The translations under genes and the position numbers were made by a program. Positions 1,454 to 17,554 of a stretch of 37,408 nucleotides of DNA are shown here, piece by piece. This DNA is from an uncultured Saprospiraceae bacterium (GTDB lineage: Bacteria; Bacteroidota; Bacteroidia; Chitinophagales; Saprospiraceae), in assembly GCA_905480595.1 (NCBI GenBank), contig CAJQQY010000035.1, positions 1 to 37,408 of the forward strand. The letters run 5' to 3'. How positions within the stretch are numbered: the first letter of the stretch is position 1; the number at the start of each line of letters is the position of its first letter. The notes under the pieces were generated by a model. The model was not told where the DNA came from. It was given only the letters and a program-made list of their open reading frames with translations, and made no database searches.

Positions 1454-1462
1454 ATTTGAATT

Positions 1463-1495
1463 AAGTATCGGATACCTTCAAGGTATCCGATACTT
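1463..1495 (+). terminator. Perfect 14-bp hairpin after the SusD gene
   Basis: AAGTATCGGATACC, a five-base loop TTCAA and GGTATCCGATACTT form a perfect inverted repeat 10 bases after the SusD stop codon. No T-tract follows, so it may be a leaky terminator or an mRNA 3'-stabilising hairpin that sets SusC/SusD expression above that of the downstream genes. The structure is seen directly; the role is inferred. Confidence 0.6.
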
Positions 1496-1542
1496 GGACT
1501 CTCGAAAAACCTAATTATAAAATTTTCAAAAAGAAAAATATC

Positions 1543-2373
1543 ATGAAAAATATAAAATTTCCTATTCAATTATTGATGTGTTTTTTTCTTCTAAGCCTAG
1601 TCGCTTGTAACGAAGAAGAAGAAACTCCTTTAGCCCCGACTGCAGCAGATGTGAAATTTTCTTATACGGTTGATCCAGATAATGCAAACAATATAATTTT
1701 TACTGGAGAATCAAATTTGGATACATGGTTCACCCATTGGAATTTCGGAGACAATACTTCCGCTGAAGGTTTTCAAGCCGAGAAATTATTTTATCAAAAA
1801 GGAGATTACGAAGTAACCTTTAAAATATTTACTGAAGGGGGAACTGCGGAAGCGACTCAAATTATATCAATTGCTGAAGATATTGCAGGTGGTAATTTAG
1901 TAGAAAACGGAGAACTTGATGATGATTCTTCTTGGACAGTTTTATCTATTGCAGGAGGAGTCGATCTTACCTTTCAAGCTGGAACAGCTATCTGGACAGG
2001 AGGAAGCTGGGGACAGATGGGAATTTATCAAGCGATGGAGGTAGAGGCAAACACCACTTATCAAATTCAAATGGATGTTGCAGGAAGCGGAATGTCAGAT
2101 TGTTGGTTTGAAGTTTATGTTGGAACCGTTGTCCCAATGGATGGTGTAGATTACACAGACGGAGGAATAAAATTAGGATTAAATACATGGGATGGATGTG
2201 GAAGTGACCCTTTTAATGGGCCATTAACAGCGCTTACTTGTAGCAATGGAGGAGGAGATGGAACATTCGAATTTTCAACAGACGTAACTGCCTATTTAGT
2301 TATTCGAAGTGGAGGAAACAACTTAGGAGATGATGGGGTAACTGTAGACAATATTACAGTACGAGAGCTTTAG
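1543..2373 (+). CDS. PKD-domain lipoprotein, probable surface glycan-binding protein
   Basis: This is a 276-residue lipoprotein with a lipobox ending LVAC (Cys22) followed by an acidic EEEE stretch, which in Bacteroidota is compatible with surface export. Residues about 33-110 form a PKD-type beta-sandwich with the hallmark WNFGD motif. Residues about 115-276 begin NLVENGELDDDSSW and look like a CBM4/9-type jelly roll, a pattern found in carbohydrate-binding modules. It lies between a SusD-like gene and the glucanases, the usual place for a SusE/SusF-like surface glycan-binding protein. No catalytic motif is seen. Binding to beta-glucan is inferred from position only. It is separated from SusD by a hairpin and from the next gene by 44 bases, so it probably shares a transcript with the gene after it. 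Confidence 0.8.
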   Translation: MKNIKFPIQLLMCFFLLSLVACNEEEETPLAPTAADVKFSYTVDPDNANNIIFTGESNLDTWFTHWNFGDNTSAEGFQAEKLFYQKGDYEVTFKIFTEGGTAEATQIISIAEDIAGGNLVENGELDDDSSWTVLSIAGGVDLTFQAGTAIWTGGSWGQMGIYQAMEVEANTTYQIQMDVAGSGMSDCWFEVYVGTVVPMDGVDYTDGGIKLGLNTWDGCGSDPFNGPLTALTCSNGGGDGTFEFSTDVTAYLVIRSGGNNLGDDGVTVDNITVREL

Positions 2374-2417
2374 ATCTTTTTAATAGAAATATTTATTAAT
2401 CAATTTAAAATTATATT

Positions 2418-3812
2418 ATGAAACAGAAAATTTTACCTCTTTTAATTTTTGTATTTACTATTTCTAGTGTTATTGCACAAGTCAATATTACTTTCGAAGT
2501 GAATACAGCAACAATTCCTAGTGTAGATGCGGCTGGTTTATTTTTAGCTGGAGGAACAGGTTTTGGGGTTCCAGGAGATAATCCAATGGTTGATTCAGAT
2601 GGTGATGGTATTTATACTGTAACGCTTCAAAGAGATCAGGGCTTTTCGAGCCATTATACTTTCTTAAATGGAAATTGTGCTGATTGGACTTGCAAAGAAA
2701 ATTTAGGAAATCTTCCATGTGGTGACCCTAATAATTTTGACGATCGGTTTTTACCTGCGGTAATGTCAGACACTACAATTCTAGCTTGCTTTGGAACTTG
2801 TGATGACGATGGTAGTTGTACCATCGTGACTGATTCAGTTGACATTACTTTTGAATTAAATACAGCAACTATTCCCACTATTGATCCAGCAGGAATTTTT
2901 ATAGCAGGAGGAAGTGGTTTTGGAAACCCAGGAGACAATCCTCTAGTTGATCCAGATGGAGACGGAATTTACACAACTACAATTTCAAAACCTATGGGCT
3001 TTACGAGTAACTATATTTTTTTAAATGGTAATTGTTCTGATTATAACTGTAAAGAAAACTTGGCTGGTCTACCATGTGCTGATCCGAATAATTTCAATGA
3101 TAGATTATTACCTCCGGTTATGTCAGACACCACAATTTTAGCTTGTTTTGGAACATGTGATGATGATGGCTCTTGTACTATCGTAACTGATTCTATAGAG
3201 ATTACTTTTCAACTAAATACCTCATCTATTACGGTAGATCCAGCTGGAGTTTTTATCGCAGGTGGAGGAAATTTTGGAGCTCCTGGTGATAATCCAATGG
3301 TTGATCCAGATGGAGACGGGATTTACACATTTACAACAAAAAGACCTGTCGGGTTTGTTAGCTTTTATACTTTTGCCAATGGAAACTGTCCTGACTTTAG
3401 TTGTAAGGAAGACATTTCTGGGCAAGCTTGCGCTGACCCTAATAATTTTGATGATCGTTTTTTCCCTGGTGCAATTGCGGATACTACTATTTTGGCTTGT
3501 TTCGGAAATTGTGTGGATGATGGTTCATGTGATGAGGTAAGTATTAGTGGATTAGAAATTGATAAAAATTTATTTTCCATTAGACCAACGATAGTTAATG
3601 ATTATATAAATTTAACTTTTGGCGAAAATAATCTTTACCAAGAGAAACAAATGGTCATTATGAATTCAGTAGGACAAATTTTCCAAATTACTGAATTTCA
3701 GAATAATGATAGCTACCGAATTAATACTGAGCAATACCCAAGTGGTATTTACTTCATGACAATTAAAACGAATAACAAAATGTTGACAAAGAGATTTGTG
3801 GTACAGAAATAA
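2418..3812 (+). CDS. Secreted three-repeat binding protein with T9SS sorting domain
   Basis: This is a 464-residue protein with a Sec signal peptide ending SSVIAQ. Three tandem repeats of 119 residues follow, beginning near residues 22, 141 and 260. Each starts V(N/D)ITFxxNT-like, contains AGxFxAGGxxFGxPGDNPxVDxDGDGIYT and ends with a conserved Cys-rich tail (LACFGTCDDDGSC). The VTFxVD...AGxFxAG...DxDGDGIY pattern resembles beta-sandwich starch-binding-like or CBM20/48-like modules; DxDGDG may bind calcium. From about residue 378 there is a type A T9SS C-terminal domain with PSGIYFMTI and a basic end, so export should be through the type IX system. The position inside a glucanase locus points to a polysaccharide-binding role. 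No enzyme motif is visible. Confidence 0.8.
   Translation: MKQKILPLLIFVFTISSVIAQVNITFEVNTATIPSVDAAGLFLAGGTGFGVPGDNPMVDSDGDGIYTVTLQRDQGFSSHYTFLNGNCADWTCKENLGNLPCGDPNNFDDRFLPAVMSDTTILACFGTCDDDGSCTIVTDSVDITFELNTATIPTIDPAGIFIAGGSGFGNPGDNPLVDPDGDGIYTTTISKPMGFTSNYIFLNGNCSDYNCKENLAGLPCADPNNFNDRLLPPVMSDTTILACFGTCDDDGSCTIVTDSIEITFQLNTSSITVDPAGVFIAGGGNFGAPGDNPMVDPDGDGIYTFTTKRPVGFVSFYTFANGNCPDFSCKEDISGQACADPNNFDDRFFPGAIADTTILACFGNCVDDGSCDEVSISGLEIDKNLFSIRPTIVNDYINLTFGENNLYQEKQMVIMNSVGQIFQITEFQNNDSYRINTEQYPSGIYFMTIKTNNKMLTKRFVVQK
2481..3537 (+). repeat. Three tandem 357-nt intragenic repeats
   Basis: Units start at 2481, 2838 and 3195. The spacing is exactly 357 nt (119 codons) both times, with no length drift. 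Protein similarity between units is high, including GDNPMVD-type and DPNNFDDRF-type blocks and the six-or-more Cys pattern. This suggests fairly recent duplication or gene conversion within the binding protein. Confidence 0.9.
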
Positions 3813-3819
3813 TTAGTTG

Positions 3820-3858
3820 AAACCTGAATCATCAATCTTTGGTTGATGATTCAGGTTT
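3820..3858 (+). terminator. 18-bp hairpin after the three-repeat protein
   Basis: AAACCTGAATCATCAATC, loop TTT and GGTTGATGATTCAGGTTT form a near-perfect stem with one G-T pair. It lies eight bases after the stop codon. The following sequence is only weakly T-rich, so it could terminate, attenuate or stabilise. The gap of about 220 bases before the GH16 gene fits a new transcription start there, but I found no match to the TAnnTTTG consensus in that gap. Confidence 0.7.
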
Positions 3859-4034
3859 AAGTATTATGAGTATACATTGAAAATACCTATTTGAAAAGTT
3901 CAAGTTTTACCTAATCAAATTTATAGAGAACTTTCTCAATTTCGGTTTGTCTTAATAAGGATGACATGTAATTCATCTTTTTATAAATATCAATATTATA
4001 GATTCTATTAAATCACTATCACAAACAAAACAAA

Positions 4035-6434
4035 ATGTATATTCAAAAAATTAACATGAGTTTAAAGGCAATTATCTTAATAGTAATATTAAGCTTAATT
4101 CAAACTTCTTCTTTCGGACAAATCTTTATTGAGGCTGAAGATTATGACAACATGTTTGGTGTCGAAATTGAAAATACACTTGATATTGGAGGAGGATTAA
4201 ATTTGGGATACATAAATAGTAATGATTGGTTGGAGTATGAAATTGATATTCCAATGGCTGGGGATTATATTTTTAGTTTTCGAACGGCAAGTTTAAATGG
4301 GGGAGGAGATGTAAATATTTCTAGCCAAGGAACTGAAGTAGGAACGGTAAGTATTCCAGCTACCGGCGACTGGCAAAATTGGGAAACTATGGAAGGAACA
4401 GGAATACCTCTTAGCGAAGGTTTACAAACGATCAGATTAACCGCAGTAAGCGGAGGTTTTAATATCAATTGGATTGAAATAAAATTGTCCAACCCTGTCG
4501 ACTCTGACCTACCAACAATGCCAAATATCCTTTCAAGTGAAGCGGATGTTCATTCGATAAAATTAACTTGGAATGAATCAACTGATGCTACTTCAACAAT
4601 CACCGGCTATAAAATTTACAATGGTAATGATTTATTGGCTTATGCTCAGGATACGAGTTTTAGTTTGACAAAATTAGCTCCTGAAACTGAATTTAATCTA
4701 AATATCAGAGCTGCTGATTTAGCAGGCAATCAATCTGATCCTGGAACATTGACCATTTCAACTACTCCCATTGAATGGGATATAGTTTGGTCTGATGAAT
4801 TCGATGGAACGGAAGTAGATTTAAGTAAATGGAATTTTCAAGTTGGAGGTCATGGATGGGGAAATGGGGAATCTCAATTTTATACGGATGGAGATAATTC
4901 TTTTATTGAAAATGGTTGTTTAGTCATTGAAGCACGACAGGAATCGGTAGGAAGTAATCCGTACACTTCATCTCGAATGAACAATGCCAACAAAGGAGAT
5001 TTTTTATACGGAAGAATCGAAGTAAGAGCGAAGTTGCCAAGTACCGGTGGAACATGGCCAGCTATCTGGACATTACCAACAGATTGGATTTATGGTAACT
5101 GGCCAGCTGCTGGTGAAATGGATATCATGGAGCATACTGGTAATAACTTGAATTATGTTTTTGGAACGATACATACCGGAGCGTATAATCATCAAGATGG
5201 AACACAATTAGGTGGTGGTGTACTATTGGATGATGTTGTTAATACATTTCATACTTACACTTTAGAGTGGTACCCTGATCATTTGGATTGGTATTATGAT
5301 GATCAAATTATTTTCACTTATGAAAATGAATATAAATCATTTGAAGAGTGGCCATTTGATACACCTCATCACCTTTTGTTAAATATTGCAGTTGGAGGTG
5401 GCCTTGGTGGAACCATCGATCAAAATGGAGTTTGGCCACAACAGATGAAAGTTGATTATGTAAGAATTTATGATTTTGAATTAGGAGTAGGAGATACGAT
5501 TGCTCCAAGTACTCCAACTAATTTAGCAGCAGCAGTTTCAGGAGTTGTGGTTGACCTTTCATGGCAAACTTCGATTGATGATCAGTATGTAGAGAAATAT
5601 TTTATTTATCAAGACAATGAGTTGATTGACTCTGTTTCAGGAACCATTCATACAGTCAATTTTTTAAGTCCATTGACTGAATATACTTTCGGAGTTCAAG
5701 CAAGAGATTTTGGAGGGAATTATTCTGATACAGTAACTACGACTGCAATAACAGAAGATATTGAACCAATTCTGATCCCAGGCAGATTTGAGGCTGAAGA
5801 TTATTTAAATATGCAAGGTATGGAATCCGAAACTTGTACAGACATTGGAGGAGGATTAAATATGGGATTCATAGACGCAGGTGATTGGTTGGAATATTAC
5901 GTTGATGTAGCTAGTGACGGAGAATATTTTTTAACGACTCGAGCTGCCTCTGACTCACAAGTTGGAAATTTTGAATTATTAGACGAAGACGGAAATGTTT
6001 TAGTTACTGAACAAACACCTTTTACCGGTGGATGGCAAAATTGGGAGTCAATAGTTTCAAATGGATTTAATTTAAATGCTGGCGTTCAACGGATTCAAAT
6101 TAGAGCGCTTTCAAAAGAATTTAATTTGAATTGGTTTGCCATATCCACAGATCCAAATGAATACATTACCTCAACAAAATATTTAGAAAAAAAAGCTGAA
6201 GTAATTTATCCCAATCCTTTCGATGGGGAAGAATTATTTGTCAAGCTAAATGAAAATATTTCATCGGTGGAAATTCGAATCCACACTATTGATGGTAAAG
6301 TTTCCTTTCAAAAAGAGTATCAAAATGTCAATGATCAGATTGTTATTGATGATTTAAACTTAAAAGCTGGGTTATACATTTTGACCATAACAGGGGAAGG
6401 ATTTTCTTCTCATCATAAATTACTCTCTAAATAA
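4035..6434 (+). CDS. GH16 endo-beta-1,3-glucanase (laminarinase), CBM6-FnIII-GH16-FnIII-CBM6-T9SS
   Basis: This is a 799-residue secreted multi-domain enzyme. After a signal peptide ending near SSFGQ come a CBM6 module (about 30-152, IFIEAEDYDN and GDWQNWE), a fibronectin type III domain (about 160-245), the GH16 catalytic domain (about 248-485), a second FnIII (about 490-575), a second CBM6 (about 580-715) and a T9SS sorting domain (about 720-799). The GH16 motif GEMDIMEHTG gives E361 as nucleophile, D363, and E366 as acid/base. The ExDxxE spacing is the laminarinase-type one, cutting internal beta-1,3-glucan bonds. A second start at 4056 (MSLKAII) would give a more typical signal peptide. 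The GH5 gene follows after 28 bases, so the two are probably cotranscribed. Substrate is inferred from family and neighbours. Confidence 0.92.
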   Translation: MYIQKINMSLKAIILIVILSLIQTSSFGQIFIEAEDYDNMFGVEIENTLDIGGGLNLGYINSNDWLEYEIDIPMAGDYIFSFRTASLNGGGDVNISSQGTEVGTVSIPATGDWQNWETMEGTGIPLSEGLQTIRLTAVSGGFNINWIEIKLSNPVDSDLPTMPNILSSEADVHSIKLTWNESTDATSTITGYKIYNGNDLLAYAQDTSFSLTKLAPETEFNLNIRAADLAGNQSDPGTLTISTTPIEWDIVWSDEFDGTEVDLSKWNFQVGGHGWGNGESQFYTDGDNSFIENGCLVIEARQESVGSNPYTSSRMNNANKGDFLYGRIEVRAKLPSTGGTWPAIWTLPTDWIYGNWPAAGEMDIMEHTGNNLNYVFGTIHTGAYNHQDGTQLGGGVLLDDVVNTFHTYTLEWYPDHLDWYYDDQIIFTYENEYKSFEEWPFDTPHHLLLNIAVGGGLGGTIDQNGVWPQQMKVDYVRIYDFELGVGDTIAPSTPTNLAAAVSGVVVDLSWQTSIDDQYVEKYFIYQDNELIDSVSGTIHTVNFLSPLTEYTFGVQARDFGGNYSDTVTTTAITEDIEPILIPGRFEAEDYLNMQGMESETCTDIGGGLNMGFIDAGDWLEYYVDVASDGEYFLTTRAASDSQVGNFELLDEDGNVLVTEQTPFTGGWQNWESIVSNGFNLNAGVQRIQIRALSKEFNLNWFAISTDPNEYITSTKYLEKKAEVIYPNPFDGEELFVKLNENISSVEIRIHTIDGKVSFQKEYQNVNDQIVIDDLNLKAGLYILTITGEGFSSHHKLLSK

Positions 6435-6462
6435 TTTTTTGACTAAATAAAATATTAAATTA

Positions 6463-9201
6463 ATGTGGGTTAAAAATAATAAGATATACCTATGCCAAAT
6501 TTTAATTTTTATGACTTTCCATTTCAATGCTCATGCGCAGCATTTTTTAAGCACAAATGGAAAAGCAATTGTTAATGAAAACCAAGATACCATTTTGTTA
6601 AGAGGAATGGGATTAGGAGGTTGGATGGTGCAAGAAGGTTATATGTTGCAAACTGCAGGATTCGCAAATCCGCAACATCAAATCAGAGCTACTATTCAAG
6701 AACTTATAGGAGAGGCAGATACTGAATTATTTTATGAAGCTTGGTTGGCCAATCATATGAGAGAGGCAGATATTGATTCTTTAAAAGCATGGGGGTTTAA
6801 TTCAGTTCGTTTGCCGATGCACTATAACTTGTTCACTTTACCTATTGAAGAAGAACCTGTTCAGGGTGAGCAAACTTGGTTGACCAAAGGATTTGAATTG
6901 ACAGATAGTTTGATTTCTTGGTGTAAGAAAAACGAAATGTATGTGGTTCTAGATTTACATGCAGCTCCTGGAGGTCAAGGAATGGATGCAGCAATTTCGG
7001 ATTATGACCCAACTAAACCTTCACTTTGGGAAAGTGAAGATAATCGAGATAAAATGGTGGCGCTTTGGAAAAGAATAGCCGAAAGGTATGCCGATGAACA
7101 ATGGGTAGCAGGTTATGATTTACTCAATGAAGTAAATTGGGATTTACCAGGTGGAGTAGCATTAAGAAATTTATATGAAGAAGCAACCGATAGTATTCGG
7201 AGTGTTGATCCGGACCACATTATTTTTATTGAGGGCAACTGGTTTGCTAATGACTTCACAGGATTAACGCCACCTTGGGATGACAATTTGGTATATTCTC
7301 CTCATAAGTATTGGTCGGTAAATGATCAAGCATCTATACAATGGGTTTTAGATTTAAGAAATACTTACAATGTACCATTGTATTTAGGAGAAACTGGAGA
7401 AAATTCCAATGTTTGGTTTAGAGATGCCGTTCGATTATATGAAGATAATGATATGGGCTGGGCTTGGTGGCCTTTGAAAAAAGTGGAGGCTGTAGCTGGG
7501 CCTTTATCTATTACAAAAAATGATGGCTATGAGACCTTACTAGATTATTGGAGTAATGGTGGAACTACTCCTGATACTCTTTTCTCGAAAACAGCCTTAA
7601 TGCAGTTGACAGAGGATTTAAAAGTTGAAAATTGTCGCTACCAAAAAGATGTGATTGATGCATTGTTCAGACAAGTCTATTCTGACGAAACTATACCTTA
7701 TGCTACTAACAATATTCCAGGGGTAGTCTTTGCTGCTGATTATGATATGGGCGTTGTGGGTGAAGCTTATCATGATAATGATCTAGCCAATTATTCGGTA
7801 ACAACAGGAGATTATACCGCTTGGAACAATGGATGGGCGTATCGAAATGATGGAGTTGATATTGAACGATGTTCTGACAATGTTAATTCTAACGGTTTTA
7901 ATGTTGGATTCTTAGATAATGGTGAATGGATGCAATATGAAGTGAACGTTGTGACCAGCGGAGTTTATGATATTCACGTAAGAGCAGCTTCAGGAGGTTC
8001 AGGAGGAAGAATGCATTTCGCTATGGGAGATGCTGATATTACACCAACTTCTTTTACTCCACCTACGGGTGATTGGCAAAATTGGGAAACTACCATTATC
8101 TCAAATGTTATCATAGATGAAAATGATACTAAACTAAAGTTCTTTGTAGATCAACCAGGATTTAATATTAGCAGCTTTGAATTTGTTGAAACAGGAGTTG
8201 ATATCACTTCCTTAGCTACCGATTTTGTGGCTGCAATTACCGTCGATGAATATAATATTCAAATGAACGCTAATAAATTTATCGCGAATCCATTGCCAGC
8301 GTCTCCTAGTGATTTTGAGATTTTTGTAGATGGAAATAGTATTCCAATTACGGCAGTTACCGTTGATGCAGACAATCCAAGGATCATCAAATTCACAGTT
8401 GATTATATTTTAAAATCTACCGAAACCATAAAAATTTCCTATTCAGGAAATCAAGTATCGGCAACTGATGGAACTGCATTAAATACTTTTACTCTTGAAG
8501 ATGTTATAAATAACTTGGAGTTTGTTCATCAAATTCCCGGAAGAATTGAAGCAGAAGATTTTGATTTCCAATCTGGAGTAGTATTGGAAACTACAACCGA
8601 TGACGGTGGAGGGCAAAACATTGGTTTCCTTGACCCAGGGGATTATTTAGATTATGAAGTAAATGTAACTGTTGCAGGAACTTACGATGTTGATTACCGA
8701 ACCGCTGCAGAATTTGGCGGTGGACAAATAGAATTACAACTTATCGATAATGCTGGCAACGAAACTATTGTGGGCAACCCTAATTTCCCTGTGACAGGAG
8801 GTTGGCAAACATGGACCACAACTAGCGAACAAATACAATTACCGGTTGGTAGATATATTATGCGTATTCTGATTACTCAATCTCCATTTAATATGAACTG
8901 GGTTGAGTTTTCAATTCCTACGTCAACTAAAGATTTGCATAACAATTCATTTACGGAAGTAAAAATATATCCAAATCCTAGTGAAGACTTATTTAATATT
9001 CAAGCAAAATTAAATGAAACACAACAAGTTCAGCTAGACATTTTTAATGTGAATGGTGAATTAATTAATTCGAAAGATTTAGGAGAAAGATCAAATATTC
9101 AAGAGGAAATTTCTTTGGAAAATTACCTAAATGGATTCTATTTTTTATTGTTACGATTGGAAGATGGAACGACCTATTCGACTAAGTTAGTCAAGATTTA
9201 A
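6463..9201 (+). CDS. GH5-type beta-glucanase with two CBM6-like modules and T9SS domain
   Basis: This is a 912-residue secreted enzyme. A signal peptide ending NAHAQ is followed by a TIM-barrel GH5 domain (about 40-375). Visible motifs are LRGMGLGGWM, FNSVRLPMHY, VVLDLHAAPGGQ, the acid/base pair N222-E223 in YDLLNEVNW, and the probable nucleophile E310 in LYLGETGE. The LDLHAAPG motif recalls exo- and endo-beta-1,3- or 1,6-glucanases of GH5, but I do not assign a subfamily. A CBM6-like domain (about 425-575), an Ig-like domain resembling SwmB modules (about 577-680), a clear CBM6 (about 690-825, PGRIEAEDF) and a T9SS sorting domain (about 835-912) follow. It lies between the GH16 and GH3 genes with gaps under 30 bases, so it is probably in one operon with them. 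Confidence 0.88.
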   Translation: MWVKNNKIYLCQILIFMTFHFNAHAQHFLSTNGKAIVNENQDTILLRGMGLGGWMVQEGYMLQTAGFANPQHQIRATIQELIGEADTELFYEAWLANHMREADIDSLKAWGFNSVRLPMHYNLFTLPIEEEPVQGEQTWLTKGFELTDSLISWCKKNEMYVVLDLHAAPGGQGMDAAISDYDPTKPSLWESEDNRDKMVALWKRIAERYADEQWVAGYDLLNEVNWDLPGGVALRNLYEEATDSIRSVDPDHIIFIEGNWFANDFTGLTPPWDDNLVYSPHKYWSVNDQASIQWVLDLRNTYNVPLYLGETGENSNVWFRDAVRLYEDNDMGWAWWPLKKVEAVAGPLSITKNDGYETLLDYWSNGGTTPDTLFSKTALMQLTEDLKVENCRYQKDVIDALFRQVYSDETIPYATNNIPGVVFAADYDMGVVGEAYHDNDLANYSVTTGDYTAWNNGWAYRNDGVDIERCSDNVNSNGFNVGFLDNGEWMQYEVNVVTSGVYDIHVRAASGGSGGRMHFAMGDADITPTSFTPPTGDWQNWETTIISNVIIDENDTKLKFFVDQPGFNISSFEFVETGVDITSLATDFVAAITVDEYNIQMNANKFIANPLPASPSDFEIFVDGNSIPITAVTVDADNPRIIKFTVDYILKSTETIKISYSGNQVSATDGTALNTFTLEDVINNLEFVHQIPGRIEAEDFDFQSGVVLETTTDDGGGQNIGFLDPGDYLDYEVNVTVAGTYDVDYRTAAEFGGGQIELQLIDNAGNETIVGNPNFPVTGGWQTWTTTSEQIQLPVGRYIMRILITQSPFNMNWVEFSIPTSTKDLHNNSFTEVKIYPNPSEDLFNIQAKLNETQQVQLDIFNVNGELINSKDLGERSNIQEEISLENYLNGFYFLLLRLEDGTTYSTKLVKI

Positions 9202-9228
9202 AATTAGATTTAGGAAAGCAAAAGTAGA

Positions 9229-11082
9229 ATGTTTAAAGATGTAAATATATTGTTATTTTTTTTACGGTGTCACCTTTTGGGGATTGCAATCTTACTATCT
9301 TTTCAGGTGAAAGGACAAAGTAAATTGAGTATTCCAATTTATGATAAATTTGGAATAGACTCTTTATTCTCTATTGAAGACAAGGTAAATGCTCTTGTTG
9401 ATATGATGACCTTGGAAGAAAAGATCGGTCAAATGACTCAAGTGAGGCACTTTGATGACATAACAGATGGAGATATTGATAAAAAGTTTATCGGCTCAGT
9501 TATCCATACTCAAGGGCCTTCTCCAGGAGAAGGAGCAGCTGGTTGGCAAGCAAAATTTAGAATACTTCAAAACCAAGCTTTATCAACAAGGTTGGGTATT
9601 CCTTTGATGTTTGCGGTAGATGCTATTCATGGTCAAAATACTTATAACGGAGCTACTATTTTTCCACATAATATTGGAATGGGGGCAACCCATAATCCTT
9701 CCGTAGTTGAAGCTGCAGCTGCAATTACTGCGACGGAAGTTCAGGCTACAGGTTTTAATTGGACATTCTCTCCTTGCATCGCAATTCCTTATAATGAAAA
9801 ATGGGGACGAGTTTATGAAGCCTATTCTGAAAGTACAGACTTAACTTGTGAATTAGTTAAAGCTTCTGTCCGAGGTCATCAGGGAGACTTATCAAAAAAT
9901 AATACAGTCGTTGCTACCGCTAAACATTTCATTGGAGATGGCTCTACTGATTATGGAAGGGAAGGAGGTTTTACTTCTTTGAATATGAAAGAAGTGAGCG
10001 AAAGATTATTGCCTCCATATCGAGATGCAGTAAATGAAAAAATAGGAGCGATCATGGTCTCTTTTAATTCTTTATCAGGAACTGCCATGCATGCCCACAA
10101 AGAATTAATAATGGATACTTTGAAAAACGCTATGGGTTTTGATGGAATGGTAGTGACTGATTGGAAGGGATATTCAAGGTTTGGAAAAAATGATATTATC
10201 AATGCAGGAGTTGATGTGGTGATGGCAGTTGATGGTGACTTAGATATTTTTCAAAAAGAGTTAAAAGTTGCAGTTATTAGACAAGAAGTTTCAGAGGAAA
10301 GAGTTGATGATGCAGTCAAAAGAATTTTAAGACAAAAATTTCGTTTAGGTCTATTTGAAAATCCATTTCCAGATTCCAGTCTTGTTGCCCATATTGGTAG
10401 TCAAGATCATAGAGACATCGCAAGACAGGCTGTTAGAGAATCTTTGGTTTTACTCAAGCATGAGAATAATGTTTTACCCATAAAAAAGGAAACTAAAAAA
10501 ATTGTGGTGGTTGGGGAACATGCTGATAATGCCGGTCTCCAATCGGGCGGATGGACTGTAGCATGGCAAGGAGTTCAAGAGAATTATTCTGGAGCGACAA
10601 CAATATTAGATGGTATAAAAGCTAAAGCCAAAGGTGAAGTGATTTATGATATCAATGCCCATGAAATTCATACTGATGCAGATGTTGTCATCATTGTGGT
10701 CGGTGAAACTCCATATGCAGAATTTATGGGTGATGTAGGAGAGGGAAGAGGGGCACCAAAACTGACACTCAGTTCAAAGCATCAAAAGTACATTGATACT
10801 TATAAAAATAATAATGCAAAAATTATTACTATTTTGATATCAGGAAGACCTCTGGTTACGACAAAACAAATCAATCAATCAGATGCATTTATTGCGGCGT
10901 GGTTGCCTGGTTCGGAAGGAGATGGAATTGCTGAAGTCCTTTTTGGTGAATATAATTTTACTGGAAAATTGCCTCACTCTTGGCCAAAATCTGTAGATTG
11001 CTTTAAGGATAAATTTGGTCCTAATTTTTGGGACGATTCCATAAAGCCTTTATTTGAATTTGGGTTTAGATTGAAATATTAA
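9229..11082 (+). CDS. GH3 beta-glucosidase, periplasmic
   Basis: This is a 617-residue glycoside hydrolase family 3 enzyme. The N-terminal hydrophobic segment ending VKGQ acts as a Sec signal peptide; there is no lipobox or T9SS domain, so it should be periplasmic. The (beta/alpha)8 domain shows MTLEEKIGQMTQ, KHFIGDGST and the nucleophile motif DGMVVTDW with D311. The second domain has GDVGEGRGAP, where E505 is the likely acid/base by analogy with plant exo-glucan hydrolases. It lacks the C-terminal FnIII domain seen in many bacterial GH3 enzymes, and the length fits the ExoI-like class active on beta-1,3 and mixed glucans. In this locus it would release glucose from imported laminari-oligosaccharides. 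It is the last gene of the tight GH16-GH5-GH3 unit. Confidence 0.92.
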   Translation: MFKDVNILLFFLRCHLLGIAILLSFQVKGQSKLSIPIYDKFGIDSLFSIEDKVNALVDMMTLEEKIGQMTQVRHFDDITDGDIDKKFIGSVIHTQGPSPGEGAAGWQAKFRILQNQALSTRLGIPLMFAVDAIHGQNTYNGATIFPHNIGMGATHNPSVVEAAAAITATEVQATGFNWTFSPCIAIPYNEKWGRVYEAYSESTDLTCELVKASVRGHQGDLSKNNTVVATAKHFIGDGSTDYGREGGFTSLNMKEVSERLLPPYRDAVNEKIGAIMVSFNSLSGTAMHAHKELIMDTLKNAMGFDGMVVTDWKGYSRFGKNDIINAGVDVVMAVDGDLDIFQKELKVAVIRQEVSEERVDDAVKRILRQKFRLGLFENPFPDSSLVAHIGSQDHRDIARQAVRESLVLLKHENNVLPIKKETKKIVVVGEHADNAGLQSGGWTVAWQGVQENYSGATTILDGIKAKAKGEVIYDINAHEIHTDADVVIIVVGETPYAEFMGDVGEGRGAPKLTLSSKHQKYIDTYKNNNAKIITILISGRPLVTTKQINQSDAFIAAWLPGSEGDGIAEVLFGEYNFTGKLPHSWPKSVDCFKDKFGPNFWDDSIKPLFEFGFRLKY

Positions 11083-11119
11083 TTCAGTAAATAATGGGAG
11101 CCAATATTTTAATTGAAAC

Positions 11120-11150
11120 AAAATGGGGACGTAATTCCGACCCCGTTTTT
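11120..11150 (+). terminator. Intrinsic terminator after the GH3 gene
   Basis: AAAATGGGGACG, loop TAATTC and CGACCCCGTTTT pair with one G-T and one A-A mismatch, and the stem runs into a short T-run. It lies 38 bases after the GH3 stop and separates the GH16-GH5-GH3 unit from the GH30 gene. Confidence 0.6.
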
Positions 11151-11219
11151 AAGTATTTGAATCCTAGAGTAATATAAGGACCTAATTCCTATTTTTTTAA
11201 TTTTAAATCAAAACATAGA

Positions 11220-12716
11220 ATGAAAATCCTCTACACCATTTTAATTTTTAGCTTGTCTTTCCTTGCTTGTAAAACAGCTAATGAATCAGAAAAAACTTCT
11301 ACACCGACTCCAACACCAACACCAACAGAAACAAAACAAGCATTTTCTGTTGACGGTAAAACTGTTCAAGTTTTTAATACCGCTGAAAATACGGAGTTAA
11401 GGTTAACAGCATCAGCAAATAAAAATTTTAAAGATGCCAAACAACCTTTAGAAACGGAAATTTCCATTTTTGTAAATCCTAATAAAACCTTTCAGACTTT
11501 AATGGGAATAGGAGGAGCAATTACGGATGCGTCCTCTATCGTATTTGCCACCTTGCCGAAAGAGAAACAAGAAGAGTTTTTAAAAGCCTACTACAGTCTG
11601 GAAGATGGTATTGGTTATTCTTTAGCTCGTACACATATTCATAGTTGTGATTTTAGTAAAGGAAGTTATACGTATGTTTCGGATGAAGACAAGGAGTTGA
11701 AAACTTTTAATATCGCACCTGATAAAGAACTTCGTATTCCTATGATAAAAAGAGCGACTGAAATGGCTGGAGGTAAATTACCGCTTTATGTGAGTCCTTG
11801 GAGTCCTCCTGCATTTATGAAGAGTAATAAAAATATGCTTCAAGGAGGCAAGCTGTTACCAGAGTTTAATGATGCATGGGCGTTGTACTATGCTAAGTTT
11901 ATCAAAGCCTATGAGAAGGAAGGTATGCCGATTTGGGGGTTGACGATTCAAAACGAACCAATGGCAACTCAACGTTGGGAGTCTTGTATTTATACAGCGG
12001 AAGAGGAGAGAGATTTTTTAAAAAATCACTTAGGACCAACTCTAGAAAAAGAAGGACTTGGAGATAAAAAAATTATCGTTTGGGATCACAATCGAGATTT
12101 AATTGTCAATAGAGCCAATACAATCTTTGATGATCCAGAGGCTTCCAAATATGCTTGGGGTATTGGTTTCCATTGGTATGAAACATGGACAGGTGGAGAA
12201 CCGATGTTTACAAGCTTGGGAAATATTAAAGAATCTTATCCAGATAAAAATTTAGTTTTTACAGAAGGTTGTAACGAGAGCTTTGATGCTGCAAAATATG
12301 AATACTGGCCAAATGCAGAACGTTACGGTCGATCGATGATTAATGATTTTAATCAAGGTACCGTTGCTTGGACGGATTGGAATATTTTATTGGATGAAAC
12401 TGGAGGGCCTAATCATGTGATGAATTTGTGTTTTGCACCAATCCATGCTGAAACCCAAAAAGGAGAGTTGGTTTACACTCCTACCTATTATTATATTGGG
12501 CATTTTTCAAAATTTATCAGACCTAATGCAAAAAGAGTTAGTACTGTTTCTAGTCGAAGTCATTTAGAAGCCACTTCTTTCTTGAATGAAAATGGAAAAA
12601 TGGCGACTGTGATTATGAATCCAACGGATGAAAAAATTAGTTATAAATTATACATTGGAACGAAGGCGGTGACGGAAGAAATTTTACCACATGCGATGCA
12701 GACTTTAGTTTATTAA
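11220..12716 (+). CDS. GH30 glucan hydrolase lipoprotein (probable beta-1,6-glucanase or beta-glucosidase)
   Basis: This is a 498-residue lipoprotein with lipobox FLAC (Cys17), then a Thr-Pro linker (TPTPTPTPTE) and a GH30 catalytic domain. Family motifs include MGIGGAITDASS, PLYVSPWSPPAFMKSN, the acid/base in WGLTIQNEP (E246) and the nucleophile in LVFTEGCNES (E349). GAITDA and SPWSPP are classic for GH30 members of the glucosylceramidase and endo-beta-1,6-glucanase type. Beside GH16, GH5 and GH3, removal of beta-1,6 glucosyl branches of laminarin is the natural role; that is inferred, not shown. It has its own upstream gap of 137 bases with a terminator in it and a strong terminator after it, so it is probably transcribed separately. 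Confidence 0.9.
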   Translation: MKILYTILIFSLSFLACKTANESEKTSTPTPTPTPTETKQAFSVDGKTVQVFNTAENTELRLTASANKNFKDAKQPLETEISIFVNPNKTFQTLMGIGGAITDASSIVFATLPKEKQEEFLKAYYSLEDGIGYSLARTHIHSCDFSKGSYTYVSDEDKELKTFNIAPDKELRIPMIKRATEMAGGKLPLYVSPWSPPAFMKSNKNMLQGGKLLPEFNDAWALYYAKFIKAYEKEGMPIWGLTIQNEPMATQRWESCIYTAEEERDFLKNHLGPTLEKEGLGDKKIIVWDHNRDLIVNRANTIFDDPEASKYAWGIGFHWYETWTGGEPMFTSLGNIKESYPDKNLVFTEGCNESFDAAKYEYWPNAERYGRSMINDFNQGTVAWTDWNILLDETGGPNHVMNLCFAPIHAETQKGELVYTPTYYYIGHFSKFIRPNAKRVSTVSSRSHLEATSFLNENGKMATVIMNPTDEKISYKLYIGTKAVTEEILPHAMQTLVY

Positions 12717-12734: not shown

Positions 12735-12773
12735 AAAAAAAAAGAGACACTTTTAAAGCGTCTCTTTTTTTTT
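12735..12773. terminator. Bidirectional terminator between GH30 and the SGNH gene
   Basis: An A-run, GAGAC, an inner CTT...AAG pairing, GTCTC and a T-run form a symmetric stem-loop between two convergent genes. It has T-rich tails in both directions. Confidence 0.85.
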
Positions 12774-12816: not shown

Positions 12817-14067
12817 TTAGTTTTTGATAATTTTTTCAACAAAAAGTAATTCACCGTTTCTATTTTGGATTTTTATAAAATAAATTCCTTGATTTAACTT
12901 TGATAAACTAAACCGGACACTTTCAGTTTGGTTGTTGATTCGGTTCCATTCTTTTCCTGCTGCATTAACAATCATGATTGTTGAATTTTCAGGAATACCA
13001 TTTATAGTGATTAAATTTTCAATTGGATTTGGAAAAATTTTTATTTCAGTTTTTGAAATGTTATTGGAAGCAACTACATCAATAGCAACTTCTGCAGTAG
13101 TTGTATCAGTAATGCCACATTTGGAGGCAATTAATTGAATTGTAAATGTATTGTTATTTTGAAAGTTGTGAATAGGATTTGCATCAGTAGAAATATCCCC
13201 ATCTCCAAAAAGCCATTGGAAAGAATCAGCAAAAGTTGAGTTGTTGTTAAACGTTATTTCTGTTCCATTTTGGGTGAATGAAAAATCAGCAACTGGGTCA
13301 AATGTTCCAACATTCCATTCAGACAAATTATCAAAAGTAACTATTTTAGCAGCTTCTTTTATTGTACTTGCATCAGATTCAGACAACGAAGAATTAAAAG
13401 AAATTAACGTTGGATTTTTTTGAAATAAAATAGAATAAAAAGTACAAGCTGCAGCATAAGAACCAGACAACGATGGATGAGAACCATCAGAACTGTATAA
13501 GTCAATATCTGGATGGTTGTCTCGGATATAATGCCAAACTGCTCCCACAGGTGAGACATATGCCTCATTGTCATCTCCCATGATTCGATATCGAAGATTT
13601 AATAAACTATCCATTCCTTCATAAGTACATACTGGAGGCCAATTAGAACAGTTGGAAGCATCTCCATTTTCACGACCCCAAGTCATATAAAATATGGGAC
13701 GAGTACATGCATCATTAGCTCGAATCGAATCACATAACATTGTAGCAAATGGATAAACTTCCGTTTCCACTTGTGTATCCGGGAAGGAAGGCTCTTGACT
13801 TTGTCCTTGCAATACAACATGATCCCAATCATTAGAATTAATCTTAGCAAGAGCTGTAGGATTAGTAGCATGATTCATAAGTCGATTCCCGCCAGGAGTA
13901 TGTTTATCAAATATCAAGGTGTCTCCAACTGAAATAGCTACATCATAAACTAATTGAGGAAGGTTGTTCACTCCTGTATAACTATTCCCAATAAAGAGTA
14001 CTTTTTTGGATTGAGAATAGAGATTGAATGAAATAAAAATGGCTAAGATGAGTGAGAAATTTTTCAT
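12817..14067 (-). CDS. Secreted SGNH/GDSL-like hydrolase with PKD and T9SS domains
   Basis: This is a 416-residue secreted protein. After a signal peptide ending NLYSQ, the mature protein begins VLFIGNSYTG, an SGNH block I with Ser29 as the candidate nucleophile. GGNR follows near residue 59, and block V DGSHPS supplies D194 and H197. VVLQGQSQEP near residue 84 resembles the DUF4886-type branch of SGNH hydrolases. A PKD domain (about 254-335, FQWLFGDGD) and a T9SS sorting domain (from about 338, IFPNPIENLITI) follow. Esterase or deacylase activity is inferred from the triad; the substrate is unknown. It is convergent to the GH30 gene and lies 88 bases downstream of the oxidoreductase gene, past a terminator, so it is probably its own unit. 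Confidence 0.8.
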   Translation of the reverse strand: MKNFSLILAIFISFNLYSQSKKVLFIGNSYTGVNNLPQLVYDVAISVGDTLIFDKHTPGGNRLMNHATNPTALAKINSNDWDHVVLQGQSQEPSFPDTQVETEVYPFATMLCDSIRANDACTRPIFYMTWGRENGDASNCSNWPPVCTYEGMDSLLNLRYRIMGDDNEAYVSPVGAVWHYIRDNHPDIDLYSSDGSHPSLSGSYAAACTFYSILFQKNPTLISFNSSLSESDASTIKEAAKIVTFDNLSEWNVGTFDPVADFSFTQNGTEITFNNNSTFADSFQWLFGDGDISTDANPIHNFQNNNTFTIQLIASKCGITDTTTAEVAIDVVASNNISKTEIKIFPNPIENLITINGIPENSTIMIVNAAGKEWNRINNQTESVRFSLSKLNQGIYFIKIQNRNGELLFVEKIIKN

Positions 14068-14103: not shown

Positions 14104-14143
14104 GAAAAAAAGAGAGGTGCAAGTTTAGCTAAACTTACACCTC
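14104..14143 (-). terminator. Terminator of the oxidoreductase/DUF1080 operon
   Basis: On the minus strand GAGGTGTAAGTTTA, loop GC and TAAACTTGCACCTC form a long stem with one mismatch, followed by CTCTTTTTTTCTC. It lies just after the Gfo/Idh stop codon. Confidence 0.8.
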
Positions 14144-14155
14144 ATATCTTTATGT

Positions 14156-15520
14156 TTAAAAAACCCGATATTTCGAATCTAAATATTGATTGGCTTCTTT
14201 CTCCTCAAACTGAGCAGTTTTACTATCCCAATGTAAAGTTTGATTAGGGAAACGTCCTGCAATGACTCCAAGCAAAATAGTTTCTGTTAATCGTGATGCA
14301 TAGGAAAATGGAGCAGTACATTCATCTTTCCCTAAACATGCATCAATGAATTGATGATAGTGCTTAGGAGCTTCCGCTTCGTAGTCTCTAACTGGTTCGT
14401 CCAATTTGAATTTTGCAATATCCATCTCTTGATATTCTCCATCGACAATTAATTTTGGCATCAATTGAAAATGAGGCAAATACAATCTTCCTTTTTCTCC
14501 AATAAACATGGCACCTTGGTCATGTAATGCCTCGTCGCCTGGCAATTTCAAATCTTCATGTGGAGTAGGAGCGCCTTCTCCATCAGTCCAAATCCAAGTT
14601 AATTTATCGGTAGTATATTTTGTTCCAGGGAACTCATATGTTACTTCATTCTTCTCTGGAAATCCAAAACCATTTGTTGGTCTACATTTATTGATAATCG
14701 TTTTTGGAACATCCAATTCTAATGCATTATAAGGTGTGTCAAAAATATGAACGCCCATGTCGCCAAGTGTTCCGCAACCAAAGTCCATCAATTTTCTCCA
14801 ATTCCCAGGATGATAAAAATCTTTTTTGTAAGGTCTCTTCGGAGCGGTTCCCAACCATAAATCCCAAATTAAAGTGTCAGGCACTTTGTCTTCTCCTTCA
14901 GGCTCTTTTCCATCGTAGCCCCAGTTTTTTGGAGACCATGCTCTTACTCTTTCAACTTTTCCAATGATACCATCTTGGATTAAAAGTGTAGCTAATTTAT
15001 AATCATAAAATGAGTGAACTTGAATTCCCATTTGAGTAATCAAGTTTTTTTCCTTAGCTAATTTTTGCATTGCTCTAGCTTCAGAAACATGATGTGTTAA
15101 TGGTTTTTGGCAGTAAACTGCTTTGCCCATACCCATTGCCATCATCGAGGCAGGAGCATGAGTATGGTCAGGTGTAGATACGATTACAGCATCAATTCCG
15201 TCACCTAATATTTTTAACATTTCCCTATAGTCTGTATAGACTTGAGCTTTAGGATGTAATTTTTGAGCAGCCGTTAATGCTACAAAGTCAACATCACAAA
15301 GAGCAACTACATCAACAAATTCATGCGAAGAAATTGCTTTTAAATCTTCGGCTCCCATATTACCAACTCCAATATGTGCAGTTCTTATTCGTTCAACTTT
15401 GCTAACTGTTTTATCATCTGTTCCTTCCTTTTCCTTTGAATCACCTACCCCGCAGGAAGGTAAAATTGTAACGCCTGTAGAAAGTACAGCTATCTTTTTT
15501 AGGAAATCTCTTTTTTTCAT
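14156..15520 (-). CDS. Gfo/Idh/MocA-family oxidoreductase lipoprotein
   Basis: This is a 454-residue NAD(P)-dependent oxidoreductase. The N-terminus MKKRDFLKK plus a hydrophobic stretch ending LPSC (Cys23) looks like a lipoprotein signal with a degenerate twin-arginine motif (only one Arg). The Rossmann motif HIGVGNMG lies near residue 50, CDVD ends the second strand, STPDHTHA follows, and the catalytic-loop motif CQKPLTHH carries the family Lys. The C-terminal half has the Gfo/Idh alpha/beta domain with the GCGTLGDMGVHIFD signature. Members exported like this, next to DUF1080 genes, are associated in Bacteroidota with 3-keto-glycoside metabolism, where the oxidoreductase changes the C3 oxidation state. 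That role is inferred here. It follows the DUF1080 gene by 46 bases, so they are probably cotranscribed. Confidence 0.85.
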   Translation of the reverse strand: MKKRDFLKKIAVLSTGVTILPSCGVGDSKEKEGTDDKTVSKVERIRTAHIGVGNMGAEDLKAISSHEFVDVVALCDVDFVALTAAQKLHPKAQVYTDYREMLKILGDGIDAVIVSTPDHTHAPASMMAMGMGKAVYCQKPLTHHVSEARAMQKLAKEKNLITQMGIQVHSFYDYKLATLLIQDGIIGKVERVRAWSPKNWGYDGKEPEGEDKVPDTLIWDLWLGTAPKRPYKKDFYHPGNWRKLMDFGCGTLGDMGVHIFDTPYNALELDVPKTIINKCRPTNGFGFPEKNEVTYEFPGTKYTTDKLTWIWTDGEGAPTPHEDLKLPGDEALHDQGAMFIGEKGRLYLPHFQLMPKLIVDGEYQEMDIAKFKLDEPVRDYEAEAPKHYHQFIDACLGKDECTAPFSYASRLTETILLGVIAGRFPNQTLHWDSKTAQFEEKEANQYLDSKYRVF

Positions 15521-15566
15521 ATTGTTTTGATTTTTATGAAGGACGAATCTGGAGAATCGTCTTGTA

Positions 15567-16373
15567 TTAAGGTAATTTTTTGATTTTTATATTTCGAAAC
15601 CATATTGGACTTGAGTGATCTTGAAGTCCAATGTAGCCCGTTTTGTACTTTCCATAGTCTGGACTATTTTTCCATTTGTCAGAATTCTTTTTCTCAATCC
15701 AAGCTTCATCCCAAGGGACAAAGGATAATAACTTTTTGCCATTTAGCCAATGTTCAACATTCTGAGGTGTAAAGATGATTTTTGAGGAATTCCATTCACC
15801 TATCGGATTCAATACTTTCTGTGATTGATCTGCAGGATGCATGGCATAGTCAGAACCTGTTTTTTGTAATGGCTTTAATTCTTCAGGGTTTTCAGTATAA
15901 CCCAAACTTAAGTTATATTCTGTAATATCATGTATTTCAGTATAACCTAAATCATCTATCAGTTGATATTCTGGCGAAACAATAGGAGGACTTTCGTGCC
16001 CTTCTTTTAAATGATAAAAAATACCACTATTGCCACCTTTTGGAAGTTTCCATTCTAAGTAGAGTTCAAAATTTTCAAATTCTTCAGCTCCATAAATAAT
16101 ATCTTTTCCTCCTTTGTAATCTTGTTCCAAACCTAATTCAGTATTGAAGCTTAGTGCACCATCTTCTATTGTCCAGCCAGGAGGTAAAGTTTTTTCATTG
16201 TAGGCTCGCCAACCCTCTGTACTTGTTCCATCAAAAAGAGAAATCCACTCATCGCTTTTCGTTTCGGTTATTTCTGTTTTTGTTTCAGGAGGTGCTTCCT
16301 CTTTCGGTTTAGAATCAGTTTGACAAGAGTAAATAAATGTGGTAAATAAGAGTATGGATACGATTTGCTTCAT
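15567..16373 (-). CDS. DUF1080 (PF06439) lipoprotein, probable 3-keto-glycoside hydrolase/lyase
   Basis: This is a 268-residue lipoprotein with lipobox YSC (Cys17) and a long charged linker. The PF06439 jelly-roll domain covers about residues 42-268, with WISLFDGTSTEGWR at its start, GNSGIFYHL in the middle and HSSPIWFRNIKIKKL at its end. These are family signatures of the concanavalin-like fold annotated as 3-keto-disaccharide hydrolase. It is longer than its neighbour at 16436-17065 because of an inserted EYQLIDDLGYTEIHD-type region that fits the larger DUF1080 subgroup. It is the middle gene of a three-gene minus-strand unit with the Gfo/Idh oxidoreductase. The exact substrate cannot be read from the sequence. 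Confidence 0.85.
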   Translation of the reverse strand: MKQIVSILLFTTFIYSCQTDSKPKEEAPPETKTEITETKSDEWISLFDGTSTEGWRAYNEKTLPPGWTIEDGALSFNTELGLEQDYKGGKDIIYGAEEFENFELYLEWKLPKGGNSGIFYHLKEGHESPPIVSPEYQLIDDLGYTEIHDITEYNLSLGYTENPEELKPLQKTGSDYAMHPADQSQKVLNPIGEWNSSKIIFTPQNVEHWLNGKKLLSFVPWDEAWIEKKNSDKWKNSPDYGKYKTGYIGLQDHSSPIWFRNIKIKKLP

Positions 16374-16435
16374 GAATGTTTTTTTGAGAAGTTAATAAAT
16401 AGGTGAATTCATTTAGGGATAAAAATAATAATTTA

Positions 16436-17065
16436 TTATTCAATCAGTTTGATTTTAATATTTCTCCATCGAACTTTTATTCCGCCGCCATCATGGATTT
16501 GAAGAGCGACAGCACCTTTACCTTTTCCAATTTTCTCATCTTCGATTTGAATCATTTCTTCACCATTTAACCAAGTGGTAATTTTTGGGCCTTCCGCTTT
16601 TATTTTCATGGTATTCCAATCTCCCATTTTTAATGCTGCATCTTTTTTAGGGTCAGGTTTGATTAACCAACCTCGACCGTAGGATTCATAAATCCCACCT
16701 GTATGTTTATTTGGTGGGGCAACTTCAGCCTGCCAACCTGTAATTTTTGTTCCTTCTAAAGTAGATCGAAAAAAGACTCCGCTGTTGCCGTTGGCCTCTT
16801 GCTTGAATTCTAGACTCAGTTCAAAGTCATCATAAAAATTAACAGTAGATAAATATCCATATTCCGCTTTTGGGCCGCTCTCACAAATTATTTCTCCATC
16901 ATTAACGTACCATTTTTCACTTCCATGATTAATCCAACCGTCTAAATTTTTTCCATTAAAAAGAGAAATCCATTCGTCATTTTTCGATTCTGTTTTTGAT
17001 TTGAAAGCAGTCTGACAGGAGCAAAAAGTAAAGACAATTAAAAGTATGGTTACGATTTGTTTCAT
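16436..17065 (-). CDS. DUF1080 (PF06439) lipoprotein, second tandem copy
   Basis: This is a 209-residue lipoprotein with lipobox CSC (Cys17). The PF06439 domain (about 29-209) shows WISLFNGKNLDGW, GNSGVFFRSTLEG and KVRWRNIKIKLIE. The signal peptide start MKQIV(S/T)ILL is shared with the downstream copy, and so is the A/T-rich leader before each start codon, so the pair arose by tandem duplication that included upstream DNA. The catalytic domains have since diverged strongly. It is the first gene of the unit DUF1080-DUF1080-Gfo/Idh. The two copies may have different anomer or linkage preferences; that is a guess. Confidence 0.85.
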   Translation of the reverse strand: MKQIVTILLIVFTFCSCQTAFKSKTESKNDEWISLFNGKNLDGWINHGSEKWYVNDGEIICESGPKAEYGYLSTVNFYDDFELSLEFKQEANGNSGVFFRSTLEGTKITGWQAEVAPPNKHTGGIYESYGRGWLIKPDPKKDAALKMGDWNTMKIKAEGPKITTWLNGEEMIQIEDEKIGKGKGAVALQIHDGGGIKVRWRNIKIKLIE

Positions 17066-17554
17066 AAATAAATTTTTGAAAAGTTTAATAATTAGGTTCT
17101 AAGCGATTTCATTTGAGTTTAGGGAGAAGGAAATAAATAATCTTTTCATCTGGAATTCTTTTTCAAGATGATTTTATGAGAAAATGAGTATGTACCGAAG
17201 CATGCTGACCGAGAATTCTTAAGCGGTAAGCGATATATCCATCAATAAAAATAAAAGAATAATGTTTGATTTTCCATAGATTGGTTTTACGAATTATTTT
17301 ATGAAAATAAAGAATCGTTCAGAGTTTACCAATTTCAAATGGAAAAGAATTTCAGATGTTATTTTTTTGTAGTCAACAAATGACGAATTGAAATGTTTCA
17401 ATGAAAAATGGTATAAAAGGTATCATAAAAAATAAGATTCTAATTGATAGTGCGTTTCCTCGCTTGATTATTTTTTTTAATTAGAAAAAAAATACTATTT
17501 TTCACAATTAGAATTAGAAACCAAAATCAATTTACAATACAAACTCTAAAAGAA
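17066..17554. other. 489-bp divergent intergenic region
   Basis: This region separates the minus-strand DUF1080 operon from the plus-strand acyl-CoA synthetase, so it should hold both promoters. I found no convincing TAnnTTTG element. It contains the palindrome at 17387-17402 and no ORF with coding character. Confidence 0.6.
17387..17402. promoter_or_regulatory. Operator-like palindrome upstream of the acyl-CoA synthetase
   Basis: ATTGAAA-TG-TTTCAAT is a perfect inverted repeat with 7-base arms, about 150 bases before the start codon. A smaller one (GTCA-acaaa-TGAC) lies just upstream. It could bind a dimeric regulator, but in AT-rich DNA a chance match is possible. Confidence 0.3.

Follow-up and report, generated by a model that had tools for sequence, protein, structure and literature searches.

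Glycosides can be cleaved not only by hydrolysis but also by oxidation at C3 followed by elimination. This alternative route has been recognised only recently, and most of what is known of it comes from gut Bacteroides and Alistipes and from Agrobacterium. In Bacteroides thetaiotaomicron a four-step 3-keto pathway, reportedly described by Nasseri et al. in Nature in 2024, is said to involve BT2158 and BT2157 of the BT2156-BT2160 cluster. Here we analyse a related three-gene unit, encoding a Gfo/Idh/MocA dehydrogenase and two DUF1080 proteins (DUF1080-A and DUF1080-B), in a stretch of 37,408 nucleotides (the window) of contig CAJQQY010000035.1 from an uncultured Saprospiraceae bacterium. The source genome, in which the window is contig C35, comprises 6.27 Mb in 508 contigs and is 94% complete with 3% contamination. 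From family membership and structural models we consider it probable that the unit is an exported module for the cleavage of 3-keto-glycosides.

Like the BT2156-BT2160 cluster, the window unit groups a candidate exported Gfo-type 3-dehydrogenase with a DUF1080 enzyme. It differs in that its DUF1080 proteins are of two subclasses and that it contains neither another oxidoreductase gene nor an isomerase-like one, and its dehydrogenase falls below the cut-off of the NCBIfam model BT_2158_fam. In the GlycDH/AtOGE/AtHYD/Gfo operon of Agrobacterium tumefaciens, AtHYD (on preliminary evidence) and a Gfo oxidoreductase complete the sequence of oxidation, elimination, hydration and reduction to glucose (PMC10628242). 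The presumed order of steps is alike, but a flavin dehydrogenase and a TIM-barrel Mn2+ eliminase stand there in place of the nicotinamide adenine dinucleotide (NAD) dehydrogenase and DUF1080 proteins predicted here, and the four enzymes are not gathered in one operon in our genome, where counterparts of the hydratase-type isomerase and the cytoplasmic Gfo reductase sit on another contig, C114. In Caulobacter and Pedobacter, periplasmic C3 oxidation is likewise followed by a DUF1080 protein (PMC9007349), although the dehydrogenase is the membrane-bound LacABC rather than a Gfo-type enzyme. The glucose-fructose oxidoreductase of Zymomonas mobilis (1h6d, 1ofg) is also an exported Gfo-family enzyme with a tightly held nucleotide, but it uses NADP and acts at another sugar position. 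No AP_endonuc_2-like TIM-barrel eliminase was found in the unit, and the one weak match, in one scanned ortholog locus, lay about 6.7 kb away. Judged by its genes, the unit is very probably functional and represents a variant of the known pathway in which DUF1080 proteins of two subclasses occur and a TIM-barrel eliminase is not linked. Many Flavobacteriia, Saprospiria and Cyclobacteriaceae, most of them from marine or environmental sources, would then use the same logic in compact form, together with a second DUF1080 subclass that is found naturally fused to the known one. The unit would offer a simple system for studying the role of this second DUF1080 and an NAD enzyme that works outside the cytoplasm.

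A conserved three-gene unit

The three genes lie on the minus strand with intact open reading frames and are transcribed in the order DUF1080-B (16436..17065, 209 aa; PF06439, 145 bits), DUF1080-A (15567..16373, a 268-aa lipoprotein; PF06439, 161 bits) and dehydrogenase (14156..15520, 454 aa; GFO_IDH_MocA PF01408, 71 bits), the Pfam cut-offs being 26.8 bits for PF06439 and 24 bits for GFO_IDH_MocA. The intergenic gaps are 62 bp (B-A) and 46 bp (A-dehydrogenase), and no terminator-like site was found in either. Downstream of the dehydrogenase, on the same strand, is an intrinsic terminator (14114..14143) whose 13-bp stem (14143-14114) precedes the T run TCTTTTTTT; its hairpin has a stability of -18.6 kcal/mol (z = -5.0), equalled by none of 200 shuffles. 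DUF1080-B, DUF1080-A and the dehydrogenase form one unit with a shared strong terminator. On the other side, the open reading frame map and synteny delimit a divergent intergenic region (17066..17554) that is the presumed promoter region of the unit; the frequency of promoter-like matches in it did not exceed that in shuffles. An acyl-CoA synthetase gene adjoins the upstream region of the unit also in the relatives G002 and G004.

Scanning 84,980 species genomes once yielded 80 loci of relatives. Neighbours were counted in 68 Bacteroidota-type locus rows, corresponding to 67 distinct loci (L060 and L072 are one contig) that are partly non-independent, as several each come from Flagellimonas, Spirosoma and Algoriphagus. 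The next same-strand gene upstream of the dehydrogenase encodes a DUF1080 protein in 56 of the 67, the two genes being a median of 14 bp apart, and none of the other neighbour families recurs in more than 10. Both DUF1080 types accompany the dehydrogenase in 16 loci, the window included. When 60 relatives were searched, a dehydrogenase ortholog (at least 60% identity) was present in 11 genomes; an ortholog of DUF1080-B occurred in 10 of these 11 versus 4 of 48 dehydrogenase-negative relatives (Fisher p = 1.6e-7). This co-occurrence holds within the family (p = 4e-5) and is seen even when the genes are on separate contigs. The unit is conserved across many Bacteroidota, and the grouping of its genes goes beyond chance.

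In some relatives B and A are fused in a single protein, as at L063 of G021 (440 aa) and at L165 of G014 (interrupted by the contig end), and we therefore take it that the two act together. In Lentisphaerae bacterium WC36 (L126), a 634-aa protein with three DUF1080 domains is encoded two genes upstream of the dehydrogenase; a Gfo-type gene intervenes between them (4739-9308).

Several further observations concern the surroundings of the unit in other genomes. A decayed second copy of DUF1080-B and dehydrogenase, with several stop codons, is found at L048 (G002:C59:3968-5328), and the intact copy is on another G002 contig. The gene of a GH109-domain protein adjoins the unit in seven loci (including L063, 3639-5024, and L165), which suggests that two NAD-dependent glycoside-cleaving chemistries are encoded side by side. 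No conserved electron-acceptor gene recurs around the unit. A gene for a DUF7133/cytochrome-c protein, a possible envelope electron acceptor, lies at most four genes from the dehydrogenase in five loci only (for example L091, 14152-16419).

The dehydrogenase resembles glucoside 3-dehydrogenase AL3

Among NCBIfam models, BT_2158_fam (glycoside 3-dehydrogenase) scores best for the dehydrogenase, with 310 bits over nearly the full length. When its AlphaFold model (predicted local distance difference test score, pLDDT, 89) was compared with solved structures, the Alistipes glucoside 3-dehydrogenase AL3 (8tdf) gave a VIA-align Z of 47.1, with a root-mean-square deviation of 2.1 over 394 residues, and the AL3 trehalose complex (8tdh) a Z of 47.0. 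The next-best solved Gfo entry reached Z 32.3, and the Zymomonas enzyme about 29-30. AL3 shares with the model the catalytic Lys and His and an NAD-type Asp, and its native residue numbers begin at about 39, which implies a comparable leader at the N-terminus; the identity of the two proteins is only 32%.

Among 90 orthologs, 95 columns are at least 97% conserved; AL3 has the same residue in 60 of them and the GH109 protein of the source genome in 36, against an overall identity of 34%. The conserved residues include Gly51 and Gly56, Asp76, Lys139, Asp254 and His258. Lys139 (in QKP/EKP), His258 and Asp254 (in GDMxxHI) and Asp76 are invariant in the orthologs and common to AL3. Asp76 stands at the end of beta-2, which points to NAD as the cofactor. 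The protein is predicted to be an NAD-dependent glycoside 3-dehydrogenase with an AL3-type fold. Membership of GH109 was ruled out, as the Glyco_hydro_109_C domain, present in the genome's own GH109, is absent here.

Predicted export of the unit and the NAD question

The dehydrogenase begins with MKKRDFLKK, which resembles a twin-arginine translocation (Tat) signal with KR in place of the arginine pair (KRDFLKK) and is followed by a lipobox-like LPSC. The motif, [KR]RxF[LIV], is shared by nearly all orthologs whose N-terminus could be read: Arg4 is found in 85 of 85 and Phe6 in 86 of 86 aligned orthologs, and 71 Bacteroidota-type sequences divide into 42 with KR, 26 with RR and 3 without a recognisable motif. 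All 98 control proteins from these loci (43 DUF1080-A, 20 DUF1080-B and 35 other lipobox proteins) lack it. Because Arg4 and Phe6 are invariant and tatC is present in the source genome, we retain the Tat-like reading of this signal. Tat signals export folded proteins. The N-terminus thus suggests that the dehydrogenase is exported by Tat already folded around NAD. A sequence-only reading of this DNA had raised the question of how NAD is held outside the cytoplasm; given the conserved Tat-type signal, the likely answer is export in folded form with the cofactor bound. As far as the accounts of Halbig 1999 in PMC7317946 and PMC6708511 go, export of the Zymomonas glucose-fructose oxidoreductase needs both the twin-arginine motif and cofactor binding.

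The same reading had assigned lipoboxes to all three proteins. A Cys does stand at a lipobox-like position in each of them (in DUF1080-B it is Cys17, after the signal peptide), but what holds in the window is not general for the dehydrogenase: a Cys at this position was seen in 38 of 43 DUF1080-A, 10 of 20 DUF1080-B and only 23 of 71 dehydrogenase orthologs. Membrane anchoring of the dehydrogenase would therefore be a lineage trait.

DUF1080-A and DUF1080-B belong to different subclasses

Over 211 aligned residues, DUF1080-A and BT2157 of B. thetaiotaomicron share 41% identity. Deposited structures of BT2157 (3osd, 8rr2, 9fbe, 8tda) include, by their titles, a 3-keto-glycoside eliminase/hydratase with 2-hydroxy-3-keto-glucal (9fbe) and with 3-keto-glucose (8rr2), and a 3-keto-2-hydroxy-glucal hydratase (8tda). 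His275 of BT2157 (in a QDH motif, counted from the deposited chain) corresponds to His253 of A and His191 of B. According to a 2026 paper, an H275N variant of the B. thetaiotaomicron eliminating lyase is deficient in hydration (PMC13273386). His253 of A and its PEYQ..DD segment, the counterpart of EYQ..D in BT2157, are invariant in 43 orthologs, and A is predicted from these features to be a 3-keto-glycoside eliminase/hydratase of the BT2157 type.

DUF1080-B, in contrast, is only 29% identical to BT2157 and has a signature of its own, NSGVFFRST...GWQxEVAP...TGGIYESYGRGW...LQIHDGG, that marks a distinct subclass. Like A, it carries the same His and Asn/Trp set as BT2157, and His191 is 100% conserved in 20 orthologs. 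Domain 1 of the two-domain protein BT3469 (4jqt) gives the highest score against the AlphaFold model of B (pLDDT 87), Z 25.7, followed by the BT2157 complexes with Z about 20-22. The GWQxEV motif of B may be the counterpart of the EYQ..D segment.

Candidates for the remaining steps

A second 3-keto operon on C114 (locus L026, G000:C114, 786-3944) encodes a DUF1080 lipoprotein, a candidate cytoplasmic Gfo reductase and an isomerase-like protein that is 69% identical over 348 residues to 2-hydroxy-3-keto-glucal hydratase (PDB 8ro4). Neither the hydratase relative nor the Gfo protein has a signal peptide. By homology, then, the source genome holds a candidate gene for every step of the pathway. 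Ten of the 11 dehydrogenase-positive relatives carry the C114 Gfo, but so do 21 of 48 genomes that lack the dehydrogenase, and no significant association is seen within the family (p = 0.21); it is thus a general rather than a dedicated partner.

Two other loci of G000, the source genome, were noted. At L030 (G000:C145, 28-1407, cut at the contig start), DUF1080 is the C-terminal domain of a protein whose first 250 residues have no Pfam match and look by eye like a propeller-type sugar dehydrogenase. At L028 (G000:C15, 2011-5345), an exported AP_endonuc_2 protein (TRRDFLKK) is encoded beside a chondroitinase-B-family lyase; no solved relative of this protein was found by sequence.

Discussion

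From the enzyme families, the operon, its conservation and the conserved catalytic-type residues described above, we infer the following activities and order of steps. In the first step, the dehydrogenase would fold around NAD when it is made in the cytoplasm, be exported, probably by Tat, and oxidise a glucosyl-type residue at C3; in this lineage, export may be followed by lipid anchoring. In the second step, DUF1080-A, with DUF1080-B as its partner, would release the aglycone by beta-elimination, giving 2-hydroxy-3-keto-glucal, and hydrate this to 3-keto-glucose. In the third step, 3-keto-glucose would be reduced to glucose by one of two routes. It could be reduced in the envelope by the NADH form of the same dehydrogenase, which would make the cycle redox-neutral and its outcome a net hydrolysis; or it could first be taken up and then be handled in the cytoplasm by the hydratase and Gfo protein that the C114 operon encodes. 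The sequence-only reading had proposed both a three-gene unit with a common terminator and an exported C3-oxidation and elimination route. The first is borne out by the intact genes, the stable hairpin and the recurrent upstream DUF1080; the second is supported by the AL3 structure match, the BT2157 homology, the conserved operon and the downstream candidate enzymes in the genome. We can also imagine that A and B are split into eliminase and hydratase and that the NAD-carrying dehydrogenase performs the final reduction, so that the unit would be a self-contained, redox-neutral "oxidative glycosidase" of the envelope. This is a tentative idea, and we think it rather unlikely. If true, such an enzyme system could do without free NAD, an electron acceptor or a TIM-barrel eliminase, and the DUF1080-B subclass would be a new enzyme type.

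Several points weigh against an exported 3-keto-glycoside cleavage module as we propose it. To our knowledge, no member of the DUF1080-B subclass has been characterised, and the EYQ..D segment of BT2157 (164-169) falls in a gap of the automatic alignment with B. The 310 bits of the dehydrogenase are far from the 750-bit equivalog cut-off of BT_2158_fam, and we have therefore filed it as a relative rather than an equivalog member; its substrate or regiochemistry may differ. At about 20 verrucomicrobial and planctomycetal homologues of the dehydrogenase (38-55% identity), no DUF1080 gene is adjacent. The signal of the window dehydrogenase has KR, not the RR that defines Tat substrates, and Tat signals tolerate even conservative lysine substitution poorly (reviewed in PMC7317946); in the Lentisphaerae homologue at L126, a Sec-lipoprotein-like N-terminus replaces the Tat-type start. 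Finally, deletion of BT2157 and BT2158 left growth of B. thetaiotaomicron on raffinose-family oligosaccharides unimpaired (PMC11501099), and the role of these genes is therefore substrate-dependent.

The alternatives differ in how much of this scheme they alter. The envelope unit could do no more than oxidise and cleave, with the 3-keto-sugar imported for hydration and reduction by the C114 enzymes in the cytoplasm and the electrons passed to an envelope acceptor. This is a variant of the third step, compatible with the first two, and a realistic possibility, if not the one we would expect: the lack of signal peptides on the C114 hydratase and Gfo, the presence of that Gfo in nearly all dehydrogenase-positive relatives and the nearby cytochrome-c/DUF7133 genes all fit, whereas the frequency of the Gfo in genomes without the dehydrogenase does not, and neither an acceptor nor a transporter is generally linked to the unit. 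It is unlikely that the dehydrogenase acts by the same chemistry on another sugar or position, such as a uronide, amino sugar or cyclitol glycoside. Gfo/Idh/MocA enzymes do differ widely in substrate, and the modest identity to AL3 and the missed cut-off leave room for such a change. Yet AL3 is separated by a Z gap of 15 from every other solved Gfo structure among the matches listed, the invariant residues are enriched in those shared with AL3, and the dehydrogenase is coupled to a BT2157-like DUF1080.

The unit might also be a functional part of the adjacent beta-glucan locus (20..12716, plus strand; SusD, GH16, GH5, GH3 and GH30 by Pfam), where it would finish laminarin or gentio-oligosaccharides. 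We find this improbable and judge that the locus has no functional tie to the unit. In favour of a connection are the short distance in the window (within 1.5 kb) and the presence of GH16, GH5, GH3 and GH30 genes, but the two are convergent, and the unit lies on the opposite strand with its own terminator and an unrelated SGNH-like gene in between. By synteny, the glucan genes are beside the unit in none of the relatives checked, so the conserved linkage expected of a member of a beta-glucan polysaccharide utilisation locus was not found; three dehydrogenase-carrying congeners, G001, G002 and G003 (G003 only 66% complete), have no GH30 match at E <= 1e-40. A carbohydrate-binding or ordinary hydrolase role of the DUF1080 proteins, with the dehydrogenase carrying out an unrelated oxidation, seems more improbable still. 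The fold of B does also resemble CBM66 (Z about 20) and GH16 enzymes (Z about 16), and the DUF1080 family includes a reported endo-xanthanase/lichenase (PMC9007349); against this stand the His and Asn/Trp set identical to that of BT2157, the conserved operon with a 3-dehydrogenase relative and the fact that the nearest solved relatives are 3-keto eliminase/hydratases.

With the glucan genes absent from beside the unit in relatives and GH30 unmatched in the three congeners, laminaribiose and gentiobiose are only guesses as substrates. B. thetaiotaomicron BT2158 serves trehalose, leucrose and palatinose (PMC11300592), and on this analogy a broad range of disaccharides and glucosides is our best guess for the window unit.

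Neighbouring genes

The SGNH/DUF4886-like gene (12817..14067, minus strand; Pfam), which encodes a protein sorted by the type IX secretion system, was rejected as a member of the unit, as it is cut off by the terminator and was not found next to the unit in relatives. Between it and the convergent GH30 gene, a strong A/T-flanked hairpin at 12735-12773 probably acts as a terminator, possibly for both strands. The same contig also carries genes for HMG-CoA reductase (24569-25933) and a cytochrome P450 (33073-34437).

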